Source: Thermaerobacter marianensis DSM 12885
Lineage (GTDB): Bacteria > Bacillota > Sulfobacillia > Thermaerobacterales > Thermaerobacteraceae
Reading direction: 5' to 3'
Length of the DNA: 64,000 bases
Assembly: GCF_000184705.1 (NCBI RefSeq)
Contig: NC_014831.1
Span: forward strand, 1-64,000
Below are positions 14,770-59,339 of the stretch, piece by piece (the first letter of the stretch is position 1; each line of letters opens with the position of its first letter). The notes beneath the pieces are model-generated. The model did not search any database and was not told where the DNA came from. It saw only the letters and a list, made by a program, of their open reading frames with translations. The position numbers were made by a program, and so were the translations under genes.

Positions 14770-14844
14770 GCGCCGTTAGCTCAGTCCGGATAGAGCGGCT
14801 GACTACGGATCAGCAGGTCGGGGGTTCAAATCCTCCACGGCGCA
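14770..14844 (+). tRNA. tRNA-Arg(ACG), prophage integration target
   Basis: 75 nt: acceptor GCGCCGT/ACGGCGC, anticodon stem GCTGA/TCAGC with loop CTACGGA (anticodon ACG), T-arm with TTCAAAT loop, A73. The sequence from the anticodon stem to C75 is the phage attachment core. In the lysogen the gene is followed by CCG; at the right junction the same core is followed by A, so the undisturbed host gene encoded CCA. Confidence 0.97.
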
Positions 14845-14846
14845 CC
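14801..14846 (+). repeat. attL: attL core (46-bp direct repeat)
   Basis: Identical over 46 bp to 59294-59339. It covers the 3' part of tRNA-Arg from within the anticodon stem through the first two bases of CCA. Flanking bases differ on both sides (T/G before, G/A after), so the boundaries are exact. Confidence 0.95.
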
Positions 14847-14937: not shown

Positions 14938-16047
14938 CTACCGGCGCAGGTACCCCTCCTGCGCGCCGGGGATCACATGGGCGTAGACCTCGGCCGTGAA
15001 CGCCGGCGAGTAGTGCCCCAGGCGCTCGGAGACGGCCGTGATGGACCAGCCATGGTACTGGAGCAGGTGCGAGCCGTGGATATGGCGGAGGTCGTGCATG
15101 GAGAGCGGGGGTAGGCCGAGGCGCTTGGCGTGCTTGCGGAGCACCTGCGTCGGCACGTCCGGGCGCAGGAACCGTCCTCCGGGCGCCGTGAACACGTGCT
15201 CCGGGTGTTCCCAGCGCTGGGCGCGGGCGATCTCTAGCTGCTGCTCGGCGCGGTGCCTGTCCAGAACCTCGGCAGTCCGGTCGTCTAGCCAGACGACCCG
15301 GGCCTCGTGGTTTTTCACATCGCCAAGGATGAGGCGCTTGCCCTCACGGTCCTGTTTGAGCGCGCGCCGGACGCGGATGGCCGGCCGGCTCCAGTCGATG
15401 TCTTCCCACCACAGGCCGCAGAGTTCGCCAACGCGCAGGCCGGTATGAGCGGCGACGTACCAGAGGGGATACCATCGGGTGCCCAGGGCCGCCTCCAGCA
15501 GCTGCTCCAGCTGCTCGCGGGTCAGCATGGGCGGCTCGGACCTCTGGCGGCGCGGCAGGGTGAGGTTGTCCGCCGGGTTGTACCCGAGATAGCCCATGCG
15601 CACGGCGTAGGAGAGGGCGGCATGGAGGGCTCGGTGGTGCTTCTGGACGGTCGTCGCGCTCAGGTTGCCGGGCCGGCCATCATCCCGAGGCGCCTGCTGC
15701 AGCTCGTCCAGCCACCGCTGGATCTGCGCCCGGGTGAGCCTGTCCACGCGCATGGGGCCGAAGGCGGCCCGGATTCTGCGCGTGCAATAGGCGTAGTCGT
15801 CGTAGGTCCGCCCCTCCCGGTTCGTCCGCACGTGGGCCAGCCACTCGTCTAGGAGCTCGTCCACGGTCATGCGGACGGCCGTCAGCTCGCCCTGCATGTG
15901 CCGAGCCTTGAGCTGCTGTTCGACTCGCTCCGCGTCGCGCTTGGTGCCGCGGACCGACGTGTACTTCCAAAGCCTTTTGCCCGTCTTCGGGTCGCGGCCG
16001 ATGTCGACCCGAATCTCCCAGTAGTCCTTGCCACGCTTACGGATCAT
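14938..16047 (-). CDS. int: Tyrosine site-specific integrase
   Basis: A 369-aa phage integrase that recombines attP with attB in tRNA-Arg. The open frame extends through the upstream tRNA, but ATG 16047 is preceded on its strand by GGAGAGGGAGAT and begins the normal N-terminus (MIRKRGKDYWEIRVDIG, an AP2-like arm-binding region). A SAM-like core-binding domain spans about 60-165. The catalytic domain contains HTGLRVGELCGLWWEDID (first Arg), HDLRHIHGSHLL (HxxR) and a final Tyr in AEVYAHV. It lies 92 bp from the attL core. Confidence 0.96.
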   Translation of the reverse strand: MIRKRGKDYWEIRVDIGRDPKTGKRLWKYTSVRGTKRDAERVEQQLKARHMQGELTAVRMTVDELLDEWLAHVRTNREGRTYDDYAYCTRRIRAAFGPMRVDRLTRAQIQRWLDELQQAPRDDGRPGNLSATTVQKHHRALHAALSYAVRMGYLGYNPADNLTLPRRQRSEPPMLTREQLEQLLEAALGTRWYPLWYVAAHTGLRVGELCGLWWEDIDWSRPAIRVRRALKQDREGKRLILGDVKNHEARVVWLDDRTAEVLDRHRAEQQLEIARAQRWEHPEHVFTAPGGRFLRPDVPTQVLRKHAKRLGLPPLSMHDLRHIHGSHLLQYHGWSITAVSERLGHYSPAFTAEVYAHVIPGAQEGYLRR

Positions 16048-16066
16048 TTCCGTGATCTCCCTCTCC

Positions 16067-16075
16067 TGGTATAAT
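16067..16075 (+). promoter_or_regulatory. Extended -10 promoter of the phage tRNA-like gene
   Basis: TGGTATAAT at 16067-16075, identical to the element before gyrB, 12 bp upstream of the tRNA-like gene at 16087 and pointing rightward, away from int. The -35 is weak. Confidence 0.65.
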
Positions 16076-16086
16076 AGGCCCGAGGT

Positions 16087-16163
16087 GCGCCGGTAGCTCA
16101 GTTGGAAGAGCGGTGTTGTGGCGAAACACCAGGTCGAGGGTTCGAGTCCCTCCCGGCGCACCA
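16087..16163 (+). tRNA. Phage-encoded tRNA-like gene, anticodon read as GGC
   Basis: A full cloverleaf: acceptor GCGCCGG/CCGGCGC, D-arm GCTC/GAGC, anticodon stem GTGTT/AACAC with 7-nt loop GTGGCGA, T-arm GAGGG-TTCGAGT-CCCTC, A73 and encoded CCA (16161-16163). With T33 in register the anticodon is GGC (Ala), but the G3-U70 identity pair of tRNA-Ala is absent (G3-C70). G32 and G37 are also unusual. The loop contains GTG, so an automatic call as His is possible, but no stem supports that register. The flanking GT can extend the acceptor helix by two pairs. Function uncertain. Confidence 0.8.
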
Positions 16164-16181
16164 AAATTTTTCCCAGCCCCG

Positions 16182-16211
16182 TTGACTAGGACGTGCGCTG
16201 GCGCATAGACT
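16182..16211 (+). promoter_or_regulatory. Promoter of putative anti-tRNA small RNA
   Basis: TTGACT (16182-16187), 18-bp spacer, TAGACT (16206-16211), predicting a start near 16218, immediately before the first tRNA-complementary block. Confidence 0.5.
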
Positions 16212-16217
16212 AGAAGT

Positions 16218-16323
16218 GAGCCACAACACCGCATACCGGGTTGGTCTCTCAACTGAGCTAGGGAGACGAACCCGAGACCTGGTGCAGGAACGGCGTCCAC
16301 CTCGGGCGCCTTTCCTGTTTTTT
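16218..16323 (+). ncRNA. Putative small RNA complementary to the adjacent phage tRNA
   Basis: A ~105-nt segment with its own predicted promoter and a rho-independent terminator (AGGAA/TTCCT plus GGCG/CGCC, then T6 at 16318-16323). It contains four blocks exactly complementary to the tRNA-like gene at 16087: 16220-16232 (anticodon arm, 13 nt), 16250-16260 (D-arm, 11 nt), 16267-16273 (T-loop, 7 nt) and 16276-16284 (variable region, 9 nt). Their order is a circular permutation of the expected antisense order. CGGGTT-g-GTCTC and GAGAC-g-AACCCG form an internal hairpin. No open frame fits. It may instead be a decayed inverted tRNA copy. Confidence 0.5.
16286..16323 (+). terminator. Terminator after the tRNA/small-RNA unit
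   Basis: AGGAA (16286-16290) pairs with TTCCT (16312-16316), GGCG (16292-16295) with CGCC (16307-16310), then T6. It meets the 3' end of the converging DUF3800 gene. Confidence 0.7.
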
Positions 16324-16990
16324 AGGACCAGTCCCACACCCACACCCGCGGCTTTTCTCCGATCGTGTACGGTTGGATCAGCCGGGCGAGTGCCTTCTTG
16401 TTCTGGTTGCCCGACGGATACTTGAGCTGGCGCACCGCGCCGACTAGTAGGTCTACGACTTGGAGCAGGTCCTCGTTGCTAGAACTGGCCAGCCGGACTT
16501 CAATCTGTTTATGCGGCAGCACGTCTCTCAGGATGGCCTCGATGCCGACGGGTAGATAGTCGTCGTCTTTGGGCCTGTTTCGCTCGTCGATGGTTATCAC
16601 GATCCGGGGCTCAGGGATGTGGGGAGCGAACTTCACCAACAGTTCCGTGAGCAGCGTATCGTAGATGTCCCTGCGGTTCATGCGGCGCCACTGGTCCAGC
16701 TTGTCTCCGGGAACGTGTAAGAGGCGGGCATACCAGTTCTTGTATATAAACTTCCTGGCGATGCGCCGGCCAAACCGGTAGCGCCAGTCGTTGGGGTTCC
16801 GGCTAATTTTGTGGAAGTGAAACTCCTTGAAGAAGGCCTCCGCTGCGCGCTGATCGGAGACCATGGTGCGCCACTTGTCGCCTTGCCACGTGATCCAGAG
16901 ACCGGCGTAGAACGGTTCCGTAGCACGCAGGGCACCAGACTCATCGAGGAAGACCTCCATGACTTCGCTCGTCTTATAAGCCACCCGCAT
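16322..16990 (-). CDS. DUF3800 domain protein
   Basis: 222 aa, leftward. Recognised as DUF3800 by FLDESG near the N-terminus, the central VITIDERNRP, and the C-terminal EDLLQVVDLLVGAV, the acidic positions that define this RNase H-like family of unknown activity. Such genes are common as isolated accessory genes in prophages and defence-type loci. A GGGAGGGAG lies directly before ATG 16990; GTG 16984 would be better spaced. It sits between the phage tRNA/small RNA and the lysogeny genes, a typical moron position, and looks less GC-rich than its neighbours. A nuclease role is possible but unproven. Confidence 0.75.
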   Translation of the reverse strand: MRVAYKTSEVMEVFLDESGALRATEPFYAGLWITWQGDKWRTMVSDQRAAEAFFKEFHFHKISRNPNDWRYRFGRRIARKFIYKNWYARLLHVPGDKLDQWRRMNRRDIYDTLLTELLVKFAPHIPEPRIVITIDERNRPKDDDYLPVGIEAILRDVLPHKQIEVRLASSSNEDLLQVVDLLVGAVRQLKYPSGNQNKKALARLIQPYTIGEKPRVWVWDWS

Positions 16991-17319: not shown

Positions 17320-17802
17320 CTAAGCTGCCTCTGGGCAGCCCAGACACGTCAACTCGCGACACAACAGTAGACAGCGGCAGAGGTGTGACGGTAGGAATCG
17401 AAACCGCGCATGCACCATCCACGGCGTGACGTAAAAATAGTCCGCCAACTCCTCGACCGTACTCACACCCTCCCGCATGGCCTGTAAAAACTGGTCCAGG
17501 GGCATGAGATGGTCGCACGCCCAGCGCAGGGCCCGCGCCTCATCGCGACGGTAGGATGTGCGCGCCGTGGCCGACGTGCAGGCCACGAAGGTGGACGTAA
17601 CCGGCACGGTGAAATGGTGGCCCAGCTCTTCCGCCATGACACACCGTTCCAGCCGCGGGTTCGCCGGCAGACTGGAATCGAGCACGATGGCTGCGCCGTG
17701 CGGCGTCCGCAAATAGAGGCCTAACAGGCCCTTGCTGGGCAGCAACGGCACGTACTCGACGAGGATACCCTCAGTGGCGGCCATTTGGAGAAGCCTCTCC
17801 AC
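17320..17802 (-). CDS. ImmA/IrrE-type metallopeptidase
   Basis: 160 aa, leftward, GTG start at 17802 overlapping the repressor gene by 32 bp, so probably co-translated with it. The motif AEELGHHF corresponds to the zinc site of the ImmA/IrrE family in the EELGHH variant common in phages. In ICEBs1 ImmA cleaves the ImmR repressor to derepress the element; pairing with an HTH repressor here suggests the same antirepressor role. The C-terminal part has an HTH-like segment (TVEELADYFYVTPWMVHARF) and four cysteines near the end. Confidence 0.85.
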   Translation of the reverse strand: MERLLQMAATEGILVEYVPLLPSKGLLGLYLRTPHGAAIVLDSSLPANPRLERCVMAEELGHHFTVPVTSTFVACTSATARTSYRRDEARALRWACDHLMPLDQFLQAMREGVSTVEELADYFYVTPWMVHARFRFLPSHLCRCLLLCRELTCLGCPEAA

Positions 17803-59293: not shown

Positions 59294-59339
59294 GACTACG
59301 GATCAGCAGGTCGGGGGTTCAAATCCTCCACGGCGCACC
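59294..59339 (+). repeat. attR: attR core (46-bp direct repeat)
   Basis: Identical to 14801-14846: the 3' half of tRNA-Arg(ACG) without a 5' half. It is followed by A, restoring the original host CCA, and by the host terminator. Confidence 0.95.

Follow-up and report, generated by a model that had tools for sequence, protein, structure and literature searches.

DUF3800 genes, for which an RNase H-like fold is predicted, travel with non-coding RNAs (PMC10910872; PMC11701678), and in the part of the literature searched no function is stated for either the genes or their RNAs. Separately, the cleavage of transfer RNAs (tRNAs), and phage tRNAs as a counter-measure to it, are established (PMC11555353; PMC12409363), and RtcR provides a precedent for the sensing of 5′ tRNA halves (PMC7790460). 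Here we describe a prophage locus of Thermaerobacter marianensis DSM 12885 in which a tRNA gene is followed by a predicted small RNA (sRNA) complementary to it and by a convergent DUF3800 gene. A stretch of 64,000 nucleotides (nt) at the start of a single-contig genome of 2,844,696 bases was analysed and is called the window below. Comparison with a homologous locus in another genome (L128, genome G485) suggests that these elements probably form a mobile three-part module, consisting of a dedicated tRNA gene, an antisense sRNA and a convergent DUF3800 gene, with sRNA–tRNA pairing coupled to the DUF3800 protein. We infer that both RNAs are transcribed, that the sRNA binds the tRNA and that this binding is coupled to DUF3800. 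A preliminary description made from the window sequence had recognised the sRNA parts of this unit and missed the DUF3800 gene that completes it.

A predicted antisense RNA downstream of a phage tRNA

The elements of the two modules are as follows (a prime marks the complement of a tRNA part).
16070..16075, plus strand: TATAAT, read from the sequence, a likely −10 hexamer for the phage tRNA gene
16087..16163, plus strand: phage tRNA gene, with encoded CCA
16182..16211, plus strand: promoter-like site of the sRNA, TTGACT-N18-TAGACT, from a promoter scan
16218..16323, plus strand: predicted sRNA, based on its fold, blocks and promoter-like site and on the homologous unit in L128
16220..16232, plus strand: anticodon′ block, 13 nt, exact complement of tRNA positions 24–36 (16110–16122), covarying in L128
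16250..16260, plus strand: D′ block, 11 nt, complement of tRNA positions 8–18 (16094–16104)
16267..16273, plus strand: T′ block, 7 nt, in the sRNA's own hairpin, complement of tRNA positions 52–58
16276..16284, plus strand: V′ block, 9 nt, complement of tRNA positions 41–49, its 3′ part closing the sRNA stem with anticodon′
16285..16323, plus strand: intrinsic terminator, with the 13-mer AGGAACGGCGTCC identical in L128 and a U-run overlapping the DUF3800 stop codon
16322..16990, minus strand: DUF3800 gene, 222 amino acids, convergent with the sRNA (PF12686, E=5.5e-7)
L128, 142–218: tRNA with a Ser GCT anticodon
L128, 272–301: sRNA promoter TTGACC-N18-TATATT, from a promoter scan
L128, from ~308: sRNA, ended by a terminator, with a DUF3800 gene convergent to it

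L128 was found with a profile built from the window's DUF3800 protein and its relatives, and is a second tRNA–sRNA–DUF3800 module whose DUF3800 protein is 39% identical to that of the window. Its sRNA opens with AGCAGGTGCGTGC, an exact 13-nt complement of positions 25–37 of its own tRNA, and in both modules the 13-nt complement ends at the third anticodon base. The two tRNAs differ at 9 of these 13 positions and all nine differences are compensated in the sRNAs, so that exact complementarity is preserved through compensatory change in this one homologue; window and L128 cross-pair over 6 nt at most. The D′ block of L128 is shorter (7 nt) and follows anticodon′ in the same order, and in both modules the convergent DUF3800 gene has its 3′ end at or close to the sRNA terminator. 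The preliminary description had favoured a functional RNA, pairing with the phage or a host tRNA, and had named drift of the blocks without compensation as an outcome that would tell against it; the comparison came out the opposite way, each change in L128 being matched in its sRNA, and supports a functional plus-strand RNA that pairs with the phage tRNA as the probable product of the locus.

Chance is effectively excluded as the source of this complementarity. A 13-nt run was reached in 1 of 5000 dinucleotide shuffles. Across all the retrieved loci, which contain 109 distinct tRNA genes, the longest complement of a tRNA gene in the 250 nt that follow it was 13 and 14 nt for the two module tRNAs and no more than 10 nt for the other 107. 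When each sRNA was compared with 120 distinct tRNAs, the neighbouring tRNA was its unique best match, with a unique 13-nt run. Because L128 keeps a compensated match, and because only the two modules among the 109 tRNA genes show a complement of at least 13 nt, the predicted RNA is very probably functional rather than a tRNA relic.

The promoter-like site is the sole sigma-70-like match in 16000–16400 (shuffle mean 0.0) and the terminator comprises a stem-loop within 16285–16317 followed by T6 at 16318–16323, both where the preliminary description had placed them. The plus-strand RNA has a predicted fold of −51 kcal/mol, far more stable than expected by chance (z −5.1), in which the anticodon complement forms the extreme 5′ end, mostly unpaired, and the D-arm complement the apical loop. 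Four tRNA-complementary blocks in the order anticodon′, D′, T′, V′ had also been noted, as a rotation of true antisense order; blocks and order are real, and those that recur in L128 are anticodon′ and D′, T′ being absent there. D′ and T′ complement near-universal tRNA sequence, a complement of 11 nt being reached by other tRNAs too, so that specificity resides in the 13-nt block, and part of V′ (GGTG) is automatic since the closing stem of the sRNA pairs it with anticodon′ (CACC). The circular permutation largely dissolves into 5′-half antisense and sRNA self-structure, because D′ follows in plain antisense order, V′ is partly closing stem and T′ lies in the long hairpin. The conserved core, as predicted from the two modules, consists of anticodon′ and D′, which together match the tRNA 5′ half in colinear antisense.

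Both module tRNAs are atypical and their normal charging may fail. ARAGORN, which the preliminary description had recommended running, calls the window tRNA as Ala GGC at 16087–16163; its D-arm (GGAAGAGC) is Arg-like and its anticodon that for Ala, the anticodon stem has 6 base pairs (bp) and G3-U70 is missing. The tRNA of L128 has a Ser anticodon without the long variable arm. The promoter scan of the window gave no match at the putative TATAAT of the tRNA gene; in the corresponding place L128 has TTGAAA-N17-TATAAT. No homologues of the sRNA were found by blastn in phages and plasmids, and a terminator pattern search in viral_contigs returned two chance matches only.

Pairing energetics and possible mechanisms

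Pairing energies were estimated from secondary structure, with neither modifications nor tertiary structure taken into account, and on this basis the predicted gain is −20.1 and −18.5 kcal/mol (window and L128) with a tRNA 5′ half ending at the anticodon, −5.5 and −9.2 kcal/mol with the intact tRNA, and at best −12.4 and −11.2 kcal/mol with host 5′ halves. In a read-through transcript of tRNA and sRNA, antisense pairing is predicted to beat the cloverleaf (−108.7 versus −100.5 and −89.7 versus −82.7 kcal/mol). The mechanism we favour, tentatively, is that the sRNA, coupled to DUF3800, acts as a toehold sensor for tRNA that has been cut at the anticodon. The toehold, formed by the unpaired ~9 nt at the 5′ end of the sRNA, would contact the anticodon loop, and intact tRNA would resist invasion; a cut at the anticodon would free the 5′ half, colinear antisense to the sRNA, which would open the closing stem, and the rearranged sRNA would switch on or aim the DUF3800 protein with its predicted RNase H-like nuclease fold. 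Such a module would protect the prophage or its host when tRNAs are being cut, the dedicated tRNA serving as bait. In broader terms, the locus might encode a new kind of RNA-based system of tRNA surveillance or targeting, made up of a bait tRNA whose 5′ half, through the anticodon, is read by a toehold-switch antisense RNA, and of a DUF3800 nuclease set in action when the two RNAs pair, a possibility we hold with some reserve.

Several observations weigh against the module and its proposed working. Only two modules were found complete, and in genome G390, where the DUF3800 protein is 65% identical to that of L128, the gene has a premature stop beside an IS66 transposase gene and neither tRNA nor sRNA remains. 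Other DUF3800 RNA classes have no comparable tRNA complementarity. The AlphaFold model of the DUF3800 protein has a mean pLDDT of 34.6, the nuclease fold resting on the literature and Pfam. Judged by cofold energy alone, host tRNA-His is about equal to the cognate tRNA as a partner of the window sRNA. Of 300 shuffled versions of the L128 sRNA, 2 equal the authentic sequence in pairing with the 5′ half, for which reason the exact-complement statistic is the stronger one.

Pairing with the 5′ half could also serve to restrain the tRNA itself. If the odd tRNA were harmful, through mis-decoding or by being uncharged, the sRNA might be its antisense antitoxin and engage the newly transcribed 5′ half while this is still unfolded, with DUF3800 clearing or protecting the duplex. 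The atypical character of both tRNAs and the predicted advantage of antisense pairing in the read-through transcript are consistent with this idea, which we nevertheless regard as doubtful, since toxicity is not indicated by the data and the need for DUF3800 is left unexplained. Still less likely, in our estimate, is a guide function, in which the 5′ end of the sRNA would direct cleavage by the DUF3800 nuclease to the anticodon boundary of the tRNA, or of foreign tRNAs sharing its anticodon arm. The 13-nt block is guide-like in being 5′-terminal and in both modules stops precisely at the final base of the anticodon, and the predicted RNase H fold (PMC10910872) would suit such a role; its perfect target, however, would be the tRNA of the module itself, the 13-mer has only poor matches in host tRNAs, and the predicted energies make the anticodon stem hard to invade.

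Two further readings see the locus as a tRNA copy or mimic rather than as an antisense RNA. A T-arm-like stretch identical to the tRNA antisense at 21 of 25 positions, together with the permuted order, could point to a decayed inverted tRNA copy without function, as the preliminary description had considered; this is highly improbable given the compensated changes in L128, the corresponding positions of promoter and terminator there and the strong plus-strand fold. The minus strand had likewise been compared with a permuted tRNA, and could be taken for a tRNA mimic akin to YrlA, a bacterial Y RNA, which has the same order of 3′ half ahead of 5′ half; a pattern search for the D′–T′ order did find true YrlA-like RNAs in phage contigs. 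For the window this is the least probable reading of all. The reverse strand folds poorly (z −1.7), a U–G pair of the long stem being present on the plus strand only; T-loop A58 and D-loop G19 are lost and there is no acceptor hairpin; and no match to YrlA (RF02553) was obtained even at E 10, nor does the genome have a TROVE/Ro60 gene.

The YrlA-like Y RNAs of viral contigs L084, L087 and L088 are an observation in their own right: they have a UUCG loop closing the acceptor stem and match at E 1e-4 to 4e-3, below the Rfam gathering score. The L087 contig (2000–2300 and 3842–4318) also has six tRNA genes and a match resembling transfer-messenger RNA.

Prophage setting and DUF3800 relatives

The module sits inside the left end of a prophage that is bounded by 46-bp direct repeats, together with HTH repressor-like genes and the following features.
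14801..14846, plus strand: left attachment site (attL), the 3′ part of host tRNA-Arg(acg), a 46-bp repeat with its other copy at 59294–59339
14938..16164, minus strand: integrase open reading frame (tyrosine recombinase; PF00589, E=1.6e-20), adjoining the module
17320–17802, minus strand: IrrE-type peptidase gene
The location of the module tRNA between these repeats bears out its earlier designation as phage-borne. The host genes for tRNA-Arg(acg) and tRNA-Arg(cct), adjacent in relatives, are ~50 kb apart here.

The DUF3800 domain match scores 30.8 bits against a cut-off of 21 (PF12686), and the acidic residues of the protein (DESG, D135, D180) are conserved in its relatives. A PDB sequence search found no relative of the protein, and a search for close homologues in genome_contigs, viral_contigs, phages and plasmids gave nothing besides the element itself and a single distant relative; PADLOC gave a weak match to the candidate PDC-M04A (E=0.0029). 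Across the phylum the domain occurs in 43 of 299 sampled genomes, and a known DUF3800 RNA is present in 8 of 30 DUF3800 loci; all six Rfam DUF3800-VII/-VIII RNAs are convergent with and 3′ of their DUF3800 genes, as in the window. Neighbours of L128 include a DNA methylase and an HSDR_N protein, and the G390 gene adjoins a Shedu-domain gene. In G145 and G429, more distant relatives are flanked by an HTH gene and an IrrE gene near a recombinase or integrase, and have a different convergent RNA.

The latter (L112/L138 and L113/L139) is apparently a second undescribed DUF3800-associated RNA, located just 3′ of the gene, with a multi-branched fold and its 3′ end at the DUF3800 stop codon, and it is similar in two distant prophage-like regions. 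It has no Rfam match, and a class search started from G145 yielded one genome; the L113 RNA reaches 11 nt of complementarity with two tRNAs from other genomes. Elsewhere, ~200 nt 3′ of a DUF3800-like gene (L132), the convergent strand has CAGCACGC...GTGTGGGATCCTTGAGC, resembling DUF3800-VII, and 3′ of another DUF3800 gene (L130) two similar direct copies with GGCGTGACCAGTTGGTAGTGGA may represent a tandem pair of DUF3800-associated RNAs.

Comparison with described systems

As a structured small RNA beside a DUF3800 gene, the window RNA belongs to the same general kind as the DUF3800 motifs of Rfam (DUF3800-I RF02969, -VII RF02967, -VIII RF03075, -IX RF02968 and -XI RF02975). It differs from them in that no DUF3800 family was among its Rfam matches up to E 10, its unit includes a dedicated tRNA and the RNA is antisense to that tRNA. 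A co-encoded tRNA with an antisense relation was not found in a partial literature search, which did not include the original description of the DUF3800 motifs, and the arrangement has a real chance of being categorically new. For these widespread elements, the tRNA encoded beside its antisense RNA is a concrete and testable candidate binding partner, and it would link them to tRNA cleavage in phage–host conflict; a surveillance or targeting system, if true, would be the first functional clue for a large unexplained group of DUF3800–RNA pairs.

Among tRNA-related systems, the YrlA Y RNAs (RF02553) resemble the locus in the permuted tRNA-like order on its minus strand, whereas the locus lacks a match to their model, there is no Ro60 gene, and its structured strand is the opposite one. 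The CreTA type VIII toxin–antitoxin system (PMC12737573) also joins a small RNA to a tRNA partner; there, CreT sequesters the tRNA via rare codons in an open reading frame and is repressed by a CRISPR effector, while direct antisense pairing is predicted here. Phage tRNAs that oppose tRNA-cutting defences (PMC11555353; PARIS/AriB, PMC12409363) likewise place a phage tRNA in a tRNA-centred conflict, but they replace depleted host tRNAs, and the parts of these reports consulted describe no antisense sRNA or DUF3800 partner. RtcR (PMC7790460) shares with our favoured mechanism a bacterial response to tRNA cut after the anticodon; it is a protein sensor that recognises cyclic-phosphate ends through a CARF domain, whereas in the module described here the sensing would be done by RNA pairing.
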